Below are positions 8,532 to 63,482 of a stretch of DNA of 64,000 nucleotides, piece by piece. The DNA lies in assembly GCA_018396705.1 (NCBI GenBank), contig JAGTQZ010000004.1, positions 310,001 through 374,000 on the forward strand. Reading direction: 5' to 3'. The position numbers were made by a program, and so were the translations under genes. Each line of letters opens with the position of its first letter. Position 1 is the first letter of the stretch. Below the pieces are notes generated by a model, which was not told the origin of the DNA, did not search any database, and saw only the letters and a list, made by a program, of their open reading frames with translations. This DNA is from Candidatus Bathyarchaeota archaeon (GTDB lineage Archaea; Thermoproteota; Bathyarchaeia; Bathyarchaeales; Bathycorpusculaceae).

Positions 8532-8656
8532 GCGATGTATACCCAGTGGCCTAGTCCAATAATAAAGCGTCCTCCCTTTTTGTATTGTAAACCCGTTAAG
8601 CCTAAGAAAGGGAAAACTTAATTCTACTGATAAGTTAAAGATAGCAAGATACAAGT

Positions 8657-8768
8657 GCGGGGGTTGCCAAGCCTGGCCAAAGGCGCAGCCCTGAGGCGAG
8701 GCTCGTCCAAAAGCTTCGCGGAGCGGCTGTCCCGTAGGGGTTCGTGGGTTCAAATCCCACCCCCCGCA
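8657..8768 (+). tRNA. tRNA-Leu (anticodon GAG) with a 27-nt intron
   Basis: The acceptor stem GCGGGGG (8657-8663) pairs with CCCCCGC (8761-8767), followed by discriminator A. The D arm has GCC/GGC with a GG-containing loop. The anticodon stem CAGCC (8686-8690) pairs with GGCTG (8725-8729). The loop gives anticodon GAG at 8693-8695. Between position 37 (8696) and 38 (8724) lie 27 extra bases (8697-8723), the standard archaeal intron site. The long variable arm with a CCC/GGG stem is that of class II tRNA-Leu, followed by T stem GTGGG/CCCAC around TTCAAAT. Spliced length is 85 nt. The exact intron ends are inferred from the canonical 37/38 position. CCA is not encoded. Confidence 0.95.
8697..8723 (+). 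other. tRNA-Leu intron (canonical 37/38 site)
   Basis: Twenty-seven bases interrupt the anticodon loop between G37 and C38. Removing them restores a 7-base loop CTGAGGC closed by five base pairs. Archaeal tRNA introns are cut by the EndA-type splicing endonuclease at a bulge-helix-bulge. The bulges were not modelled, so the end points may shift by a base or two. Confidence 0.8.
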
Positions 8769-8911
8769 CTAATTTACTATTAATCATTGTCGTTTAAGCT
8801 CAATAATCACGGAGGAGCTGTTCATAAGAAAATAAATGAGCGTAGGCCCCATAGTGCTAAAACTTGAGACCGTTGTTTTGGTTCGTTGTTTCTGTAAGTA
8901 AGGTTTATTAA

Positions 8912-8939
8912 GTAATACTTTTGTTATTAAAAGTATTAC
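8912..8939. promoter_or_regulatory. Perfect 11-bp inverted repeat, NikR-like operator upstream of nikM/cbiM
   Basis: GTAATACTTTT (8912-8922) and AAAAGTATTAC (8929-8939) are exact reverse complements separated by 6 bases. Read as half-sites, the layout is GTAATA-N16-TATTAC, the same N16 spacing as the E. coli NikR site GTATGA-N16-TCATAC. It ends 10 bases before the ATG of a nickel/cobalt transporter gene and follows a TATA-like TTTATTAAG at about 8904-8912, so a bound protein would cover the transcription start. Metal-dependent repression by a NikR homologue is inferred; no nikR gene is in the window. Confidence 0.65.
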
Positions 8940-8949
8940 AGGTGTTGCA

Positions 8950-9612
8950 ATGCACATACCCGACGGCTATTTAAGTCTTGAAGTTTCAGTTTTAATGAGT
9001 GTTGTATCTGTGGCTTTTCTTGTTTTGTGTTGGAGAAAGGTTAAGGCTGCTTATCCAAAATCTTTCGCTTCGTTGTTAGCCGTCTCCAGCGCTTTCGTTT
9101 TTGTGGCACAAATGATCAACTTTCCAATAACTTACGGAACTAGTGGGCATCTGGTTGGTGGCACTTTTCTCTCCGTTGTTCTTGGACCTTATGCGGCTGT
9201 CATAAGCATGACCATTGTTTTGTTGATACAAGCGTTATTTTTTGCGGATGGGGGAATATCTGCTTTGGGTGCAAACATTTTTAATATGGCTATAATAAGT
9301 GGGTTAAGCTTTTTCTTAGCGAAGCTTATCGCAGGCAACAATATAAGAGGCAAACGCTTTGTCATGGGAGTTTTTGCAGCTTCATGGCTTTCAGTTGTTT
9401 TAGGAGCTTTGGCATGCGGCTTAGAAATAGGTGTGTCCCCAGCTTTCTCGCAAGCTGGTGGCGTTGCTGTGACGGTTCCAACAATGCTTTTCTGGCATGC
9501 CTTAATTGGATTTGGCGAGGCAATAATAACAACAACTTTTATAACTCAACTTTCCAAGCTTCAAGCGGTTGTCCTAAATGGTTTAACTTTTTTCAGGAGG
9601 GATGCTGTTTGA
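8950..9612 (+). CDS. Nickel/cobalt ECF-type transporter S component (CbiM/NikM)
   Basis: A 220-residue membrane protein with the family's invariant N-terminus MHIPDGYLSLEVS. His2 and the free N-terminus bind Ni2+ or Co2+ in characterised NikM/CbiM. Six or seven hydrophobic helices follow, with conserved INFPI, GTSGHLVGG, QALFFADGGISALGANIFNM and a late WHALIGFGEAIITT. It is the substrate-binding subunit of an energy-coupling-factor importer. The next gene encodes the PDGLE partner, but the transmembrane (CbiQ) and ATPase (CbiO) subunits are not adjacent. The operator-like repeat upstream and the hyp genes elsewhere in the window favour nickel over cobalt. Metal specificity cannot be read from the sequence. 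Confidence 0.92.
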   Translation: MHIPDGYLSLEVSVLMSVVSVAFLVLCWRKVKAAYPKSFASLLAVSSAFVFVAQMINFPITYGTSGHLVGGTFLSVVLGPYAAVISMTIVLLIQALFFADGGISALGANIFNMAIISGLSFFLAKLIAGNNIRGKRFVMGVFAASWLSVVLGALACGLEIGVSPAFSQAGGVAVTVPTMLFWHALIGFGEAIITTTFITQLSKLQAVVLNGLTFFRRDAV

Positions 9613-9893
9613 GCGGATACGTTAAAGCTTTGATACTGATACTAGCTGGTTTTGTGGTTCTGTTGCCTTTCACCTCATCTTATCCGGATGGGCTGGAAAC
9701 AGTAGCTGAAGCTCTTGGCGTCAGAGAACACGAGCCTCTATGGACTGGACTAATGCCCGATTATGTTCTTCCAACGGTTGAGAATCCATATCTTTCAACT
9801 TTGATTGCAGGCTTTTTAGGGGTGTTTCTTATCCTGATCTTATCGTTTGCTCTTGGAAAGGTAATATCAAAAACCAGCCAATTAAAAAGCTGA
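9609..9893 (+). CDS. PDGLE-domain partner of NikM/CbiM (NikN-like)
   Basis: A 94-residue protein with two hydrophobic helices flanking an extracellular loop that contains the signature SSYPDGLETVAEALG. PDGLE proteins are the small accessory subunit of NikMN-type metal importers. The frame is open further upstream inside nikM, but the TTG at 9609 has a perfect AGGAGG (9595-9600) 8 nt upstream and overlaps the nikM stop as TTGA, so translational coupling is likely. The C-terminus ends shortly after the second helix. Probably acts with the upstream protein to bring Ni2+ or Co2+ to the importer. Confidence 0.87.
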   Translation: MSGYVKALILILAGFVVLLPFTSSYPDGLETVAEALGVREHEPLWTGLMPDYVLPTVENPYLSTLIAGFLGVFLILILSFALGKVISKTSQLKS

Positions 9894-9899
9894 GGAATG

Positions 9900-10568
9900 C
9901 TATTCTCGACTTGAGAGAATCACTATGTAATCGGCCGTATCCGCACACATGTCAGCAGCATGCTCAATAAATTCCACTAAATCATCGAAAATAACCATGG
10001 ACCCGCTGTCTATTTCCCGTCCATGCTTAATGAACAAAGCTTTTGTTTTTAAATATTCTTCATCTATTTTCTTTTCAATTTCTTCAACCTTTTTGGCCCC
10101 ACTTATGGCTGCAGCAGAGTCAACTGCAATTTTTTCAATACTGCTTCTCAAAGCGTGAGCACAGTTTAAAAGGAAAGCTGTCGTACGGGCTGTGCTTTCC
10201 CATAGCTCTTTTGGTATTTTTGCTTCTTCAAGCATCTTTATGCATCTTGCAGCGTCTTTCACGTGGTCAGCCAGAGTGTCAAGCCTTTTCACTAAATGCA
10301 TTAAATCCTCGCGGTATTCTGCAAAAAGCGCCACACCTTTGGAAAGCTCCTTGAAAACTTCCGTTCGCAGTCTGTCAACCTCTTTTTCAACTTTGAAAAT
10401 GTTCTCTATATATTGCATAGCTTCCTTTTTGTTGTTTTCAACCATCTTTTGCATGGATTGATGGAGAAGCGTTACAGTGTCAAGAGCTTTTGTGATTTGT
10501 TCCTGCGCTAGGTCCAGGGCTTTGGCTCTTCGCCTTCTTTCAAACCATGCATAACTCTTACTTTCCAA
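9900..10568 (-). CDS. DUF47 / PhoU-like protein
   Basis: A 222-residue, entirely helical protein of the DUF47 family, related to PhoU. It has heptad-like helices with the conserved acidic pattern around VEKEVDRLRTEVF, a mid-protein LVKRLDTLADHVKDAARCI and a late DDLVEFIEHAADMCADTADYI, corresponding to the two PhoU-type E/D-x3-D metal-binding bundles. The family usually sits beside PitA-type phosphate transporters and is thought to modulate phosphate uptake; no transporter is adjacent here. It converges with the PDGLE gene with a 6-bp gap. Function beyond family membership is inference. Confidence 0.85.
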   Translation of the reverse strand: MESKSYAWFERRRRAKALDLAQEQITKALDTVTLLHQSMQKMVENNKKEAMQYIENIFKVEKEVDRLRTEVFKELSKGVALFAEYREDLMHLVKRLDTLADHVKDAARCIKMLEEAKIPKELWESTARTTAFLLNCAHALRSSIEKIAVDSAAAISGAKKVEEIEKKIDEEYLKTKALFIKHGREIDSGSMVIFDDLVEFIEHAADMCADTADYIVILSSRE

Positions 10569-10622: not shown

Positions 10623-11078
10623 TTACCTTTCCTCTTTCTCGGCAACCCAGTAAGCTTTTATTTTTCCGTTTCGTGCGACAACATACTCCTTCTTAAAGAT
10701 TGGGGCTTCCTTCTTGTATCTTTCAACGGCTTCCCTTAAAACTGGAAAAACATTTTCCCTATGAGAACCTGCAACTAAAACGTAAACAAGATCCTCACCC
10801 ACATTGAACTCGCCGGAAAAATGGTGAATTTGAACGTCTACAACACCTTTTTTCATTTTTAAGTCTTCACGTATCCCTGATAAAACCTCATCGGCTTTTT
10901 CCTCGTAAGCCTCTATCTCCAGCTTTTGAACTTTCTCGCCTTCCATGTTTTCTCCACGAACAACACCCACGAAAATGGCTATGGCACCTGCCTTTTGAAA
11001 GTCCGGTTTATTTTTTACTTCTGCAAGCAACTTCTCAAGGGACAATGTGCCCTTTTCGTGAACATATTTAGCACACAT
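10623..11078 (-). CDS. moaE: Molybdopterin synthase catalytic subunit MoaE
   Basis: A 151-residue protein with the MoaE pattern GAIAIFVGVVRGENMEG, LEIEAYEEKADEVL, IHHFSGEFNVGEDLVYV, AGSHRENVFPVLREAVERYK and APIFKKEYV. Known reaction: it inserts two sulfurs from thiocarboxylated MoaD into cyclic pyranopterin monophosphate to give molybdopterin. In anaerobic archaea the product is used mainly for tungsten or molybdenum enzymes. The MoaD-like gene in this window lies about 20 kb away. No other cofactor gene is adjacent. A short intergenic gap separates it from the leftward dehydrogenase-like gene upstream. Confidence 0.92.
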   Translation of the reverse strand: MCAKYVHEKGTLSLEKLLAEVKNKPDFQKAGAIAIFVGVVRGENMEGEKVQKLEIEAYEEKADEVLSGIREDLKMKKGVVDVQIHHFSGEFNVGEDLVYVLVAGSHRENVFPVLREAVERYKKEAPIFKKEYVVARNGKIKAYWVAEKEER

Positions 11079-57770: not shown

Positions 57771-60059
57771 ATGACGCTGGTGCGAGTGAGGGTTAGGGTT
57801 ACTGGCATAATTCAAGGAGTAGGCTTCCGCCCGTTTATATATCGTATAGCAGTAAAAAACAATCTCAAAGGATATGTCCGTAACATGGGCGACGCTGGTG
57901 TGGAAATTCTTCTAGAAGGTGAAGAAAATGCCATTAACAATTTTCTAATGGACTTGAAAACCAAAAAGCCATCCTTGGCGCAGATCCACGAAGTCATTAC
58001 AACCGAAGTTAAAGGACAATACGAATACACCGACTTTAAAATTATCGAAAGTTCTGATAAGGCTGAACTTTCTGGTTCTGTAATTCCGCAAGACGTGGCT
58101 ATATGCAACGAATGCCTAAAAGAGCTTAGAGACAAAAGCAACCCCAGATACAACTATTTCTTCATTACATGCACTGATTGCGGTCCAAGATATACCGTTA
58201 TTGAAAGACTTCCATATGATCGAGAGAACACTACGATGCGAGACTTCCCCATGTGCAGTTTCTGCCAAAACGAGTATAGGAACCCGTTAAACAGACGTTT
58301 CCACGCCCAAACCGTAGCTTGTCCAAGGTGTGGTCCAAAGGCTTATTTAACAACAAGCAATGGCGAAATTATTCCGTTTATGGACCCCATACGAGAGGCT
58401 GGCAAACTGATAGCTGAAGGTTTCATCGTGGCTGTTAAGGGCTATGGAGGTTTTCATGTCGCGACTTCAACCTTAAAAGATGAACCTCTAGAAAGGCTTA
58501 GAAAAGCAAAGCATAGAAAGCAGAAGCCTTTCGCCATTATGGCGCGAAGCTTAGACGCTGTGAAATCGTTCGCCGAAGTGGATGCTAAAGAGGCTGAGCT
58601 TTTAACCTCCTACACGCGTCCCATAGTGTTGCTGAGAAAAAGCGCCGATTACTATCTTTCAGATTTGGTCGCTCCAGGCCTACACAATGTTGGAGTCATG
58701 CTTCCATATACGGGTTTACATTACCTGCTCTTTGACGACGTCGACGATCCAGCTTTTGTGATGACCAGTGCTAATCCGCCTAACCAGCCTATAGTCAAAG
58801 ACGACCTTGAAGCTTTGAAAGCGCTTGGCGGCGTAGTCGACTATTTTCTGTTCCATAATAGACGGATTGCTCACCGTTGCGACGACTCAGTGATGCGTGT
58901 GCATGGTGAAAAACAAGTTTTCATCCGACGTTCAAGGGGTTATGCTCCAGCACCTTTAATGTTAAGGGAAAAGGCTGAAAAATGCGTTTTAGCTTTGGGC
59001 GGCGAACTTAACAATACTGCCTGCATTTTGAACGGCGACAAAGCTTTTATATCTCAGCACATAGGTGACGTTGAAAACATTGAAACCAGAGATTTTCTTA
59101 AAAACACTGCTGAACATTTGGCTTATCTAACTAACAGTAGGATCGAAGTAGTTTCATGTGACTTGCATCCGAAGTTCACTACGACAAGACTTGCTCAGGA
59201 TTTGGCTGTCCAACATGGATGGCAACTTATCCAAGTGCAACATCATTTTGCCCACGTGGCCGCTTTAATGGCTGAACATGGCGTTGACGAAATAATATGC
59301 ATATGTTGCGATGGGTACGGATATGGAATTAACGGTGAGGCATGGGGCGGCGAAATAATATTCGCTTCACGAAACTCCTACGAAGTAAAACGCGTTGCTC
59401 ATCTTGAGGAACAACCAATGCCTGGGGGAGACTTGGCAACACGCTACCCACTGAGAATGGCCGCCGGGATTCTTCATAGAAAAATAAACATGAGGGAGTG
59501 GCTTATGCAGAATGGGTCACGCTTCCCATACGGAGAAAAGGAGGTTCATCTAATTCTTCAGCAACTGGAAAAGAGGCGTGGTGTGATTGAAACAACGAGT
59601 TGTGGAAGAGTTCTGGATGCTATTGCAGCTATTCTTGGTGTTTGTTATGAGCGTACATATGAGGGTGAACCAGCCATGAAACTTGAATCAGCAGCTATAA
59701 ACGGTAAAGATGTTTTGCAATTGAAACCCATAATACAGGGGGATGCTTTAGAAACGACAAGCATGGTTCTTGAAATATTTGAAAAACGAGAAAAGTGCGC
59801 AGTGGCTGATTTGGCTTTTTCCACTCATGTATATTTGGCTAGGGGCTTGGCTGAGCTTGCGGTTGAAAAAGCCTTAGAAAAAGGCGTCAAAATTATTGGC
59901 TTTTCGGGTGGAGTTGCATGCAACGAAATACTTGCTGGAATTATGCGGAAAACCGTGGAAGCTGCCAATCTCCGTTTTCTAGTTCACGAGGCTATTCCAC
60001 CTGGCGACGGAGGTTTATCTTTCGGTCAAGCTGTTTATGCCGGTTTTTTTCATTTCTAA
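57771..60059 (+). CDS. hypF: Carbamoyltransferase HypF ([NiFe] hydrogenase maturation)
   Basis: A 762-residue HypF. Domains in order: acylphosphatase (RVRVTGIIQGVGFRPFIYRI), two zinc fingers (CNECLKEL, CTDCGPRY, CSFCQNEY, CPRCGPKA), YrdC-like (VAVKGYGGFHVAT, MTSANPPNQPIV) and a Kae1-like transferase domain with VQHHFAHVAALMAEHG and CDGYGYGINGEAWGGEI. It converts carbamoyl phosphate to carbamoyl-AMP and passes it to HypE for CN ligands. The ATG is 15 bp after the regulator. All four domains are intact. Confidence 0.96.
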   Translation: MTLVRVRVRVTGIIQGVGFRPFIYRIAVKNNLKGYVRNMGDAGVEILLEGEENAINNFLMDLKTKKPSLAQIHEVITTEVKGQYEYTDFKIIESSDKAELSGSVIPQDVAICNECLKELRDKSNPRYNYFFITCTDCGPRYTVIERLPYDRENTTMRDFPMCSFCQNEYRNPLNRRFHAQTVACPRCGPKAYLTTSNGEIIPFMDPIREAGKLIAEGFIVAVKGYGGFHVATSTLKDEPLERLRKAKHRKQKPFAIMARSLDAVKSFAEVDAKEAELLTSYTRPIVLLRKSADYYLSDLVAPGLHNVGVMLPYTGLHYLLFDDVDDPAFVMTSANPPNQPIVKDDLEALKALGGVVDYFLFHNRRIAHRCDDSVMRVHGEKQVFIRRSRGYAPAPLMLREKAEKCVLALGGELNNTACILNGDKAFISQHIGDVENIETRDFLKNTAEHLAYLTNSRIEVVSCDLHPKFTTTRLAQDLAVQHGWQLIQVQHHFAHVAALMAEHGVDEIICICCDGYGYGINGEAWGGEIIFASRNSYEVKRVAHLEEQPMPGGDLATRYPLRMAAGILHRKINMREWLMQNGSRFPYGEKEVHLILQQLEKRRGVIETTSCGRVLDAIAAILGVCYERTYEGEPAMKLESAAINGKDVLQLKPIIQGDALETTSMVLEIFEKREKCAVADLAFSTHVYLARGLAELAVEKALEKGVKIIGFSGGVACNEILAGIMRKTVEAANLRFLVHEAIPPGDGGLSFGQAVYAGFFHF

Positions 60060-60103
60060 ACGCAACCATTTTATTGATGTGTGCTTGCATTTCAATGAGA
60101 ACA

Positions 60104-60340
60104 ATGTGTTTAGCTATTCCTGCGAAGGTTGTAAAAGTTCAGAACAGTAAAGCTCAAGTTGACTTTGGAGAAGGTGTTCTGAGAGAGGTTGATGTTTCCC
60201 TTGTGGATGTTAAGGTTGGCGACTATGTTTTGGTACATGCTGGTTACGCCATCCAAGTGTTAAGCCGGGAAGAGGCTGAAGAAACACTACGTTTATGGCG
60301 TGAAATCTTAGAGGTTGAGAGCACGTTAGGACCAAAATGA
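60104..60340 (+). CDS. hypC: HypC/HupF hydrogenase maturation chaperone
   Basis: A 78-residue HypC. The N-terminus MCLAIPAKVVKV has the essential Cys2, which needs the Met to be removed; so the ATG at 60104 is chosen over the in-frame ATG at 60095 and over longer upstream frames inside hypF. The body is a small beta-barrel (VDFGEGVLREVDVSLVDVKVGDYVLVHAGYAIQVL, cut to VGDYVLVHAGYAIQVL). HypC binds the iron with HypD and delivers it to the hydrogenase large subunit. Confidence 0.95.
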   Translation: MCLAIPAKVVKVQNSKAQVDFGEGVLREVDVSLVDVKVGDYVLVHAGYAIQVLSREEAEETLRLWREILEVESTLGPK

Positions 60341-60361
60341 TGTGGCGTGTTGCTGGTCAAT

Positions 60362-61441
60362 ATGTTTGAACAATTAAAGTTTAGAGACCAAAATTTGGCC
60401 AGTCGAATAGCTGCGAAAATACAGGAAATCGCACCTAAAAATGATGTTGTGAAAATATGTCACGTTTGCGGCACTCATGAGTGGACAATAACCCATTACG
60501 GCCTGCGAAGTTTGCTTCCTCCAACTGTTGAGGTTATCGCCGGGCCGGGATGCCCGGTCTGTGTTACACCGGCTTCGGAGGTGGATGAGGCTGTAGTCCT
60601 TGCCATAAAAGGAGTCGTTGTCACGTGTTTTGGGGATGTTCTCCGCGTTCCAGGCTCTGAGCAATCTCTTTTAGATGCTAAAGCTAAGGGCGCTGACGTC
60701 CGAGTTGTTTACAGCGTTTTAGACGCTGTCCGAATGGCTGAAAAAGAACCGAGTAAGGAGTTCGTTTTCTTTGCCATCGGTTTTGAAACCACAGCACCTT
60801 CAACGGCTATAGAAATCTTAAGGAAACCTCCTAAAAACCTTAGTTTTCTTGTTTCTCATCGTCTCATTCCGCCAGCTATGGAGCTTCTGCTGGGAATAGG
60901 CGACCTTCATATAGACGGTTTCATCGCCCCTGGACATGTGAGCACTGTTATAGGGTTAAAGGCTTATGAAATCTTTCCAAAAGCTTACCGCATGCCCACC
61001 GTCGTTGCTGGATTCGAACCACTAGATGTGTTATTCGCCATCTACATGGTTCTGAAACAACTTAGGGAAGGCGTAGCGAGACTTGAAAACGAGTATGTTA
61101 GGGCTGTAAGTTGGGAGGGCAATACTAAAGCTCAAGAAGCCATGTATAAAGCCTTTGACATCGTGGACGGTGAATGGCGAGGACTGGGAAAACTGCCATC
61201 GTCAGCGTTCAGGCTAAAAGATGAGCATGCGGCTTTTGATGCAAGAGAAAAGTTTAGAGTACGTATCACTCGTGGTAGGGATTTGCCGCCCGGGTGTCAG
61301 TGTCACCTCGTTATGATTGGAAAAATTAGGCCTACCGAGTGCCCTCTTTTCATGAAAATTTGCACCCCGCAGAAACCTGTGGGGGCATGCATGGTAAGCA
61401 TGGAAGGAACATGTCGGATCTGGGCGAAATCCATCAGATAA
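60362..61441 (+). CDS. hypD: HypD hydrogenase maturation protein
   Basis: A 359-residue HypD. The Fe-binding site shows ICHVCGTHEWTITHYGLRSLL with C-x2-C-G-T-H, and GPGCPVCVTP. The C-terminal [4Fe-4S] cysteines are in LPPGCQCHLVMIGKI, ECPLFMKICTP and GACMVSMEGTCRIW. It assembles the Fe(CN)2CO group with HypC and HypE. The frame is open from 60347, but the ATG at 60362 gives the family start. It lies 21 bp after hypC. All expected cysteines are present. Confidence 0.95.
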   Translation: MFEQLKFRDQNLASRIAAKIQEIAPKNDVVKICHVCGTHEWTITHYGLRSLLPPTVEVIAGPGCPVCVTPASEVDEAVVLAIKGVVVTCFGDVLRVPGSEQSLLDAKAKGADVRVVYSVLDAVRMAEKEPSKEFVFFAIGFETTAPSTAIEILRKPPKNLSFLVSHRLIPPAMELLLGIGDLHIDGFIAPGHVSTVIGLKAYEIFPKAYRMPTVVAGFEPLDVLFAIYMVLKQLREGVARLENEYVRAVSWEGNTKAQEAMYKAFDIVDGEWRGLGKLPSSAFRLKDEHAAFDAREKFRVRITRGRDLPPGCQCHLVMIGKIRPTECPLFMKICTPQKPVGACMVSMEGTCRIWAKSIR

Positions 61442-61497
61442 AGCTTTTATTCAGAATGCGATATAACATGAATCGCCTCTAAGCGAGGTTAAAAACT

Positions 61498-62121
61498 ATG
61501 AGTCTTGAATCAAACAAGGCGTTAGGCGGTGTAGGTGCAATACTGATGGTTATAAGTCTTCTCGGCTTATTCAAATCAGCTTACACATTGTTTCTACTGA
61601 TTGTTGGAATTATTCTGGTTTTGATTGCGTTAAAGGGTTTCGCGGATCATTACCAAGACGGTGGCATATTTAACAACGCTCTTTATGGAGTTATCGCCAT
61701 AATTGTCGGCATAGCGGCAACCACAACCATATTCGTAATGCTTGCCCTGCAAGTGCTAGCTATGGGATTAAATTGGGCCAATCTTTTAGAAGTTCAACAA
61801 TATTTTATGGGCCATATGGATATTCTTTGGCGAATTGTTGGAACCGTTATAGGAGCTCTCCTAGTATTCTACATTGCTGGTATTGTCTCAGCAATACTGT
61901 TTAGAAAATCGTTAAACGCGCTTTCTGCAAGGTCAGATGAGAAACTTTTTGGAACCGCCGGTTTAGTCTGGCTTATAGGTGCCGTGATACCACTAATAGG
62001 CATTATTATAGTTTGGATTTCATGGATACTTATGGCTGTAGGCTTTTTCTCCATAAAAACAGCGCAGGCACCAATTCAACCGGCAGCTATCCAATCATCG
62101 CTACAACCCCCCTCACCCTAA
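61498..62121 (+). CDS. DUF996 membrane protein
   Basis: A 207-residue protein with five to six hydrophobic helices, recognised as the archaeal DUF996 family by the N-terminus LESNKALGGVGAILMVIS and the late TAGLVWLIGAVIPLIGIIIVWISWILMAVGFF, cut here to LIGAVIPLIGIIIVWISW. The C-terminal tail is Pro/Gln-rich. The function of the family is unknown. It sits between hypD and a small zinc-ribbon gene, on the same strand, with its own 56-bp leader. Confidence 0.85.
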   Translation: MSLESNKALGGVGAILMVISLLGLFKSAYTLFLLIVGIILVLIALKGFADHYQDGGIFNNALYGVIAIIVGIAATTTIFVMLALQVLAMGLNWANLLEVQQYFMGHMDILWRIVGTVIGALLVFYIAGIVSAILFRKSLNALSARSDEKLFGTAGLVWLIGAVIPLIGIIIVWISWILMAVGFFSIKTAQAPIQPAAIQSSLQPPSP

Positions 62122-62200
62122 CTAGCCTTTTTCTCTGTTCATTTATTGGTTAAGCTTAAACACTGGAAAATTCAAACTGTATAGAGGCGTGTGTTCGAAG

Positions 62201-62410
62201 ATGAGCGGTGAAAGCGATAGGGCGTACACAGGTAAATGTGTTGACTGCGGCTCACCTTTGGTTTTATATGAAATGGATTTCGAGAAAGGGCGCCGAGTTA
62301 TGCAATGTAGCCGTTGTGGCTTATTCCACTTTTACAAGAAGGATTTCTTTGGCAGATGGAAACTTGTTAAGGCTGGAAGAGTTTCAGACCTCTGGAGAAA
62401 ATCCAAATAG
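62201..62410 (+). CDS. Small zinc-ribbon protein
   Basis: A 69-residue protein. Two C-x2-C knuckles, GKCVDCGSPLVLY and VMQCSRCGLFHFY, form a zinc ribbon. The remainder is basic (KLVKAGRVSDLWRKSK). The frame is also open to a GTG at 62189; the ATG at 62201 is chosen. Function unknown; it may bind RNA or protein, and it converges with hypE 4 bp away. Confidence 0.8.
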   Translation: MSGESDRAYTGKCVDCGSPLVLYEMDFEKGRRVMQCSRCGLFHFYKKDFFGRWKLVKAGRVSDLWRKSK

Positions 62411-62414
62411 TCTC

Positions 62415-63482
62415 CTAGCAAATCCTTGGGACAGGATCTCCAACGGGTCTCGGAATTATTCTTTTCCCGCCAACGACGGTTTGCATAGCAACTCCTGCAA
62501 AGGCGTCTGTAGCTTCGCCTATCATTTCGGCTCCCCTCCCTTCCTCTGTTGTTCTCAAAAGTTCTAGAAGTTCTTCGGCTTTCTCTTTCACGACGCCTAT
62601 AACTATCTTACCCTCATTCCCAACTTCCAACGGATCTAAGCCTAGCATTTCGCAAGCTGCCCTAACATCGTTTCTAATAGGGATTTTATCCTCATAGATT
62701 ATGATCCCTACGTTGGATTTTTCGCTGAACTCGTTGAGAGCGTCAGCTAAACCGCCACGGGTGGGGTCTTTCATGGCTGTTATGCCACCCACCTCGCAGA
62801 GCATGCGCTGGATTAGACGGTTTAAAGGTTTGACATCTGATTTTATGTCGCTTCCGAAGCTTAAGCCTTCTTGGGCTGACAGAACCGCCAAGCCGTGGTC
62901 AGCAATGGTTCCAGACAAGATTATTTTGTCGCCGGGGCTGAGGTTAGAGTCCAAAATCCACCGTGCCTTGAAGTCGCCTCTAAAACGTTTCACAACATTT
63001 AAATTCTTTTCTAAGGCTTCGGTTCTCCTACCTATGCCTGAAACGTTTATGACGCATCCGCCTAAGTTGCCCTTCTCTATAACCTTTGTGTCGCCTGTAA
63101 TTATGCTCACGCCTGCCTCTTGGCATGTCTGATGCATGCTTGCCAAAATCCTTTCGAAATCGGATAGTGCTAGTCCTTCTTCAAGGATGAAGCCGCATGC
63201 CAAAGCGTAGGGTTCAGCTCCCAGAACAGCGATATCGTTTACTGTGCCGGAAACAGCTAAGCGCCCGATGTCTCCACCCGGAAAGAATATGGGTTTTACG
63301 GCGTGGGAGTCGCTTTTCAAAACAATGTCGCCAACAGCCGCCGCGTCATCAAGTGCTTCGAGAGGGACTTCTGCGTTGCTAAAACCGCCAAAATACTTTA
63401 CGATATAGTTTCTGACAAGTTCATGCATTATTGTTCCGCCAGCACCATGTAACATGGTTATGACGCCTTTACTCGCACTCAA
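62415..63482 (-). CDS. hypE: HypE hydrogenase maturation protein
   Basis: A 355-residue AIR-synthase-like ATPase. N-terminal MLHGAGGTIMHELV, then LEALDDAAAVGDIVLKSDSH, ISGIGRRTE-like region and the C-terminus PVPRIC. The terminal Cys receives the carbamoyl group from HypF, which is dehydrated to a thiocyanate and transferred to iron in HypCD. It is on the opposite strand to hypF, hypC and hypD and converges with the small zinc-ribbon gene. Full length with the essential terminal P-R-x-C. Confidence 0.95.
   Translation of the reverse strand: MSASKGVITMLHGAGGTIMHELVRNYIVKYFGGFSNAEVPLEALDDAAAVGDIVLKSDSHAVKPIFFPGGDIGRLAVSGTVNDIAVLGAEPYALACGFILEEGLALSDFERILASMHQTCQEAGVSIITGDTKVIEKGNLGGCVINVSGIGRRTEALEKNLNVVKRFRGDFKARWILDSNLSPGDKIILSGTIADHGLAVLSAQEGLSFGSDIKSDVKPLNRLIQRMLCEVGGITAMKDPTRGGLADALNEFSEKSNVGIIIYEDKIPIRNDVRAACEMLGLDPLEVGNEGKIVIGVVKEKAEELLELLRTTEEGRGAEMIGEATDAFAGVAMQTVVGGKRIIPRPVGDPVPRIC

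Follow-up and report, generated by a model that had tools for sequence, protein, structure and literature searches.

A predicted NikR operator before an orphan nikM-PDGLE pair in a bathyarchaeal genome, and a candidate nickel uptake system behind the same type of site

The perfect palindrome at positions 8912-8939 of the 64-kb stretch of bathyarchaeal DNA analysed here (the window; G000:C4:310001-374000, from a genome of 1.71 Mb in 9 contigs) is very probably the docking site of the regulator NikR in front of a nikM-PDGLE gene pair, and NikR control of this pair is well supported by comparison of sequences. Our explanation as a whole, to which we give a probability of roughly 0.88, is the following. 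When nickel is plentiful, Ni-loaded NikR would bind the two GTnnnAC half-sites of the palindrome and would sit just downstream of a TATA-like box, probably over the transcription start, where it would block initiation of nikM-PDGLE; when nickel is scarce, the operon would be expressed. NikM would then capture Ni2+ via its N-terminal Met1-His2 and His67, the PDGLE subunit would help to feed it into the cell, and import would most likely be energised by a single ATPase-ATPase-EcfT (CbiQ) module that is encoded elsewhere in the genome. What is new about the operator is the lineage, as a NikR site it is ordinary; the orphan NikM-PDGLE pair is a variant. Sites of the same type also led to two small membrane proteins, here termed A and B, which are treated in the last section.

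Table 1. Features at the nikM locus of the window, and A-B loci of relatives
Feature	Position	Strand	Remarks
TATA-like element TTTATTAA	8904..8911	+	abuts the 5' end of the operator; from sequence
Predicted NikR operator GTAATAC-N14-GTATTAC	8912..8939	.	perfect 11-bp inverted repeat, N6
Short leader, possible ribosome-binding site AGGTG	8940..8949	+	from sequence
nikM, substrate-binding S component, 220 aa	8950..9612	+	PF01891, E 2.8e-53
PDGLE-domain subunit (NikN-like), 94 aa	9609..9893	+	PF13190, E 1.5e-11
PhoU_div, convergent neighbour	9900..10568	-	PF01865; synteny marker, outside the operon
MoaE, convergent neighbour	10623..11078	-	PF02391; synteny marker, outside the operon
A-B pair with NikR-type site in shared promoter	L109:2668-3405; L114:2749-3491; L104:5948-6701		relatives

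The gene pair and its energising module

The gene identities that a first-pass annotation of this DNA had assigned, NikM followed by a PDGLE subunit, are confirmed by the profile matches in Table 1, and the PDGLE ORF overlaps the nikM stop codon. NikM matched 11 NCBIfam models, in every case below the cut-off. Its Met1, His2 and His67, which we take to be the metal ligands of the N-terminal site, align with those of 4m58 in a PDB alignment that is gap-free up to residue 67. The four neighbours scanned by profile are a creatininase, PhoU_div, MoaE and a diaminopentanoate-dehydrogenase-like protein (Pfam); neither CbiQ nor CbiO is among them, as the annotation had stated. It had also seen a nickel theme in the window, and hypF-, hypD- and hypE-like ORFs are indeed visible at 57771-63482; since these were named by eye and lie 48 kb from nikM, the theme is weak.

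Two further observations concern the surroundings of the pair. Positions 8654-8770 of the window resemble, by eye, a tRNA-Leu with complementary ends, and ARAGORN called no tRNA in the window. In G003, a genome of the same genus, two contigs break off at this palindrome (L106:3046-3073 and L107:2993-3020), and a short ORF appears by eye to fuse the start of nikM with the end of the PDGLE gene; either the pair was deleted there or the assembly is at fault.

The orphan state of NikM-PDGLE is a clade trait. In a set of 60 relatives, the own genome included, 15 genomes encode a NikM of at least 57% identity (again with the own genome); PDGLE is present at the nikM locus in all 15 and CbiQ in none. 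CbiQ does lie at the locus in all four genomes with 36-43% NikM identity (G004, G013, G020, G037); both CbiQ counts come from coordinate comparison and leave out G015, where nikM is a pseudogene. The pair is thus not of the group I NikMNQO type, in which nikQ and nikO are encoded together with nikM, CbiQ being absent from the locus in 15/15 genomes. NikR-controlled nikMNQO operons were reportedly described by Rodionov in 2006.

What had to be amended is the notion that NikM lacks an energising module altogether. CbiQ is present in 60/60 genomes of the relatives set, and the window's genome has a solitary ATPase-ATPase-CbiQ operon. Its only CbiQ match (C6:47504-48121) lies on another contig than nikM, where it seems to form an operon with two ABC ATPases, no S component being recognisable next to it; 13 of the 15 genomes have one CbiQ in all, and G006 and G034 have a second one beside a distant CbiM. 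A CbiQ with two ATPases and no adjoining S component presumably serves unlinked S components. Its presence in all 60 relatives, taken with its absence from all 15 nikM loci, suggests that a shared ECF module probably energises NikM-PDGLE. In group II ECF transporters an EcfAA'T module is shared among S components, and the present arrangement resembles theirs in that the S component is encoded apart from a solitary A-A'-T operon; it differs in that NikM, as a rule, belongs to the group I S components and has its own module, which here would be replaced by a shared one.

NikM-PDGLE might instead be a solo importer that works without a shared EcfAA'T module, given that no CbiQ is found at the locus in any of the 15 genomes and that CbiMN has been reported to retain basal activity without its ATPase. 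We regard this as unlikely, because all 60 relatives possess CbiQ, which in the window's genome is accompanied by two ABC ATPases and adjoined by no recognisable S component. Sharing of the solitary module is the economical explanation, and most likely the right one.

The operator, its regulator and its conservation

The palindrome, GTAATACTTTTGTTATTAAAAGTATTAC, has arms of 11 nt each (8912-8922 and 8929-8939) that are 100% complementary around a 6-nt centre (GTAATACTTTT-N6-AAAAGTATTAC), just as the annotation had claimed, and it ends 10 bp 5' of the nikM ATG at 8950. The description GTAATA-N16-TATTAC given there is arithmetically correct; GTAATAC-N14-GTATTAC is a better one. A scan for sigma-70 promoters and terminators found none, which is uninformative for an archaeon.

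Its likeness to the E. coli NikR site, also put forward in the annotation, is only partial. The spacing of two half-sites is of the NikR type, and the E. coli nikABCDE operator is likewise a 28-bp two-half-site element with the same overall spacing; the half-site bases differ, however, and the E. coli site controls an unrelated transporter. Among the signals given in PMC545781, which include the enterobacterial GTATGAT-[N13/14]-ATCATAC and the delta-proteobacterial GTGTTAC-[N13/14]-GTAACAC, the latter is the closest, in its 'reversed' form: half-sites GTAACAC-[N13/14]-GTGTTAC stand upstream of a putative nickel operon of D. psychrophila, and the window operator differs from them by one base per half-site. 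Compared with the NikR-controlled nikMNQO operons of the same source, our locus has in common two GTnnnAC half-sites with an N13/14 spacing before nikM and a NikM with a NikN/PDGLE partner; it differs in having no NikQ or NikO among its neighbours, with a solitary ATPase-ATPase-CbiQ operon elsewhere, and in the 'reversed' type of its operator, GTAAYAC-N14-GTRTTAC. Many of the nikM sites in these archaea have or approach this form and others have direct half-sites, the conserved core being two GTnnnAC half-sites that lie 21 bp apart from centre to centre.

The regulator presupposed by the annotation is encoded in the genome, in single copy. The one NikR_C match (C9:68257-68484, PF08753, E 1.4e-28) belongs to a nikR gene at G000:C9:68083-68493 for a protein of 137 aa. 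Of its solved relatives, the nickel responsive regulator 2bj1 scores best (E 1.8e-29), and the two sequences align around the metal-site His, His-x-His and Cys; these positions are presumably the ligands. A genome-wide search for the palindrome that tolerated up to 3 mismatches put the window site first with 0 mismatches and a site at C9:67998-68025 second with 1. The latter lies 85 bp before nikR and 11 bp before a divergent ORF of 177 aa, which has a sub-cutoff ECF S-component match (E 0.0061) and is followed by an FmdE-domain gene (PF02663, 3.7e-21). The same NikR probably controls both its own gene and this S-component-like/FmdE pair (L001:261-1230 on G000:C9), which have the site in common, and the pair may serve nickel too. 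Of 30 nikR loci, 9 have both genes in divergent orientation to nikR; the own locus is among these 9, and so are those of four genomes with no NikM match (G023, G033, G007, G059). A third site of the genome (C3:118723, 2 mismatches) was dropped; it is inside a gene that by eye is of the RNA-binding type.

The identity of the metal could be questioned. A NikR-family sensor of cobalt or zinc might bind the site, since a zinc-sensing role has been proposed for a methanogen NikR homologue that is encoded next to a zinc transporter (PMC3087415), many relatives have two NikR paralogues, and a ZnuABC-like operon (by eye) lies near a site in G008. Such a sensor is nevertheless quite improbable here: the window's genome has only one NikR match, nikR stands divergently beside nikM in 10 genomes (G005, G008, G009, G014, G017, G057, G084, G085, G086, G118), the metal-site residues of NikM align with 4m58 as described above, and hydrogenase or maturation genes occur in 11 of 80 A-B loci (the best 80 of 233).

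Palindromy by itself was rejected as evidence. Perfect inverted repeats with arms of at least 11 and loops of 3-20 occur 2 times in the window, as against 0-6 times in each of 12 first-order Markov simulations of a 64-kb sequence, so that it is the comparison with relatives that decides. The full 28-bp pattern with both arms has a single match in the window at up to 3 mismatches, and 0 in 100 shuffles.

Of the 60 relatives, 24 have NikM homologues and 47 have NikR. The site is present upstream of 20/20 nikM homologues with at least 36% identity (at most 2 mismatches; 19 with N14 and one with N15), whereas 0/9 distant CbiM paralogues (at most 34% identity) have it, none reaching better than 4 mismatches; one of these nine, that of G053, aligned only from residue 31. 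This count allowed at most 2 mismatches and a spacing of 13-15 and covered 29 of 31 matches, the second fragment of G018 and a G006 paralogue without a locus being excluded. The conservation in orthologous promoters for which the annotation had asked also holds across the order (162 genomes), where 26 of 28 nikM loci with at least 44% identity carry a perfect GT[AG][AT][TC]AC-N14-GT[AG][AT][TC]AC. The 28 loci are those left of 30 after exclusion of G004 and G020, both of which have the site in the upstream-region count. The two loci that lack it are G120 (2 mismatches), with an in-frame stop in nikM, and G102 (6 mismatches), for which 59 bp of upstream DNA were examined. Across the nikM loci, the half-sites and the N14 spacing are kept and the letters of the spacer vary. 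By eye, many of the 28 loci have an AT-rich, TATA-like stretch just 5' of the operator, and a GAGG-type motif follows 3' of it in many relatives, which would place the operator over the transcription start.

The site is also found before nikR, at up to 2 mismatches in 21 of 30 loci and at that threshold not in the other 9; in five of the 21 (G005, G008, G009, G014, G017) it is the site of the divergent nikM. Counted over the whole of the 60 genomes at up to 1 mismatch, the pattern shows little excess (76 as against 62 in the control), and thus only the position of a site is informative.

That the palindrome is a chance AT-rich inverted repeat, as its frequency in simulated sequence would allow, or a regulator-free RNA hairpin can hardly be right, because half-sites and N14 are kept in 26/28 nikM loci despite a varying spacer, the same element recurs in nikR and A-B promoters, and the direct half-sites of many A-B promoters (GTGTTAC-N14-GTGTTAC) cannot form that hairpin.

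A membrane-protein pair behind the same type of site

Sites away from nikM and nikR, fetched in 20 stretches, led to several types of genes: FmdE-type proteins (three loci, two of them Pfam-confirmed), a PF01497 periplasmic binding protein, a P-loop ATPase that is CooC-like by eye, and the small membrane proteins A (~121 aa) and B (~98 aa), which were first met via the site in G010, G015, G024, G031 and G035. Sites at RHH genes of G035 and G023 were disregarded, since they probably serve as operators for the RHH genes themselves. At L100:833-4960 of G053, LarB/LarC/LarE-like genes (by eye) lie upstream of a NikR-type site, beyond which a CooC-like ATPase and then a PF01497 binding protein follow; nickel-pincer cofactor and CODH genes may therefore belong to the regulon. 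Genes named by eye as LarB, LarC and LarE are also seen in the A-B locus of G015 and in some others. In L102 (G047) and L101 (G053), a NikR-type site with 1 mismatch precedes a RecA-like ATPase gene that adjoins an ammonium-transporter-like gene (both named by eye).

We consider A-B a tentative candidate for a NikR-repressed nickel uptake system. The wider proposal, that it is a previously undescribed and widespread NikR-controlled nickel importer which has displaced NikM-PDGLE more than once, is one to which we would give somewhat less than even odds. Gene A occurs in 17/162 genomes of the order; the window's genome is not one of them. The site lies 38-47 bp upstream of each of the 18 A genes and, when rescored by eye, departs from the degenerate form by no more than 1 mismatch; 12 of the 17 genomes were not found through the site, and yet it stands upstream of A there too. 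In a scan of one genome per species (84,980 species), 233 stretches encode a relative. The best 80 of these, some of which are the same contigs as in the order, come from archaea (Bathyarchaeota, Methanomethylicota, Aigarchaeota and related groups, Desulfurococcales and other crenarchaea, Archaeoglobaceae, Thermoplasmata) and bacteria (Elusimicrobia, Dehalococcoidia, one Clostridia MAG). Within this best 80 of 233, B adjoins A in 78, the contig ending at that point in L151 and L206, and the site (N13-15, at most 1 mismatch) precedes A in 48 of the 79 loci with 150 bp upstream, as against 10/3416 random windows and 5/536 upstream regions of other ORFs. The remaining 31 loci divide into 10 with 2 mismatches and 21 with at least 3; the latter are mostly from crenarchaea and Chloroflexi/Dehalococcoidia, also from Elusimicrobia, Clostridia and one member of the Thermoplasmata, and include three with B first on the same strand. 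In the same best 80 of 233, nikR (located by tblastn) is found in 20 A loci, in 19 of them within 1.2 kb, and the 11 loci mentioned above carry genes that by eye are of hydrogenase, protease-like or HypC/HypD-like type.

A comparison of their profiles with hhalign shows A and B to be homologous (probability 95.6%). All full-length members of the best 80 of 233 (78/78) have Ala/Gly, Cys, Phe and Pro at positions 2-4 and 7 of A, and E47, H48, H51, E53 and E76 are invariant in the 82 sequences of alignment A5, from which the A copies of L218 and of two loci with short ORFs (L167, L193) were omitted and to which five copies from the order were added. Alignment A6 omits a few B copies that were short or had an unclear start, and in L179 the start of A was placed one codon further upstream. 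An AlphaFold model of A made from 82 rows has three long helices (pLDDT 87.4, pTM 0.74); an earlier one from 16 rows was poor (pLDDT 68.9, pTM 0.38). Foldseek found no match of the model in the PDB at E<=0.001, a second fold search gave a designed 3-helix bundle as the best hit (Z 4.2), and a PDB sequence search with A returned no match. Against Pfam, 82 A members gave one weak match (E 0.0084) and one B gave only matches below the cut-off; against NCBIfam, one A gave none and 73 B gave scattered weak ones. A-B thus has no confident match in Pfam or NCBIfam, and may all the same belong to a known family. The accessible part of the open-access literature yielded no description of the pair.

Nickel superoxide dismutase has a Ni hook. 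The N-terminus of A, which after removal of Met would expose Ala/Gly-Cys-Phe-x-x-Pro, recalls this hook as well as the Met1-His2 of NikM, and could catch nickel with the help of the invariant Glu-His-x-x-His-x-Glu.

Several loci suggest that A-B may have replaced NikM-PDGLE. G035 has A-B plus a relic of nikM beside nikR; along 287 bp, the DNA of the relic shares 83% identity with the beginning of the G005 nikM region, with no match beyond, and G005, which is of the same genus, keeps nikM intact and does not appear among the A matches. In G015, A-B lies beside a nikM with two stops, and in G083 A and an uninterrupted nikM stand side by side. In one genome, G031, the replacement would have taken place beside the neighbours that nikM has in the window, A-B lying ~1.1 kb, or two ORFs, from PhoU_div and MoaE, which lie right next to nikM-PDGLE in the window as well as in G001, G002, G006, G018, G029, G126 and G127. 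Among the 162 genomes, those with A (17) and those with NikM of at least 35% identity (44, without the G015 pseudogene and a partial match in G116) overlap in 1, a weak statistic that ignores phylogeny (hypergeometric P 0.027). Within the order, genomes with A show no enrichment of NikR (14/17 vs 130/162).

A also goes together with [NiFe]-hydrogenase. A PF00374 match is present in 55/56 genomes with A (all but G196) and in 198/341 without it (397 genomes of the phylum, overlap read by eye, Fisher P 4e-11), and by genus in 22/22 vs 105/149 (P 9e-4), with shared ancestry and anaerobic life as obvious confounders of this association. Alternatively, A-B may assist another transporter as an accessory subunit, or act as a hydrogenase partner in the membrane. 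With A-B as a nickel importer, the order would have three interchangeable NikR-controlled modules, namely NikM-PDGLE, the S-component-like protein with FmdE, and A-B.

The present analysis provides a NikR operator and the outline of a regulon for a bathyarchaeal order, together with a NikM-PDGLE pair that is cut loose from a module of its own. Used as a lure, the operator exposes an unannotated pair of membrane proteins that extends from Bathyarchaeia to Thermoplasmata, Elusimicrobia and Dehalococcoidia. This pair is the part of the finding that most deserves experiment: if A-B imports nickel, it would explain the nickel supply of hydrogenase-bearing archaea without NikM.
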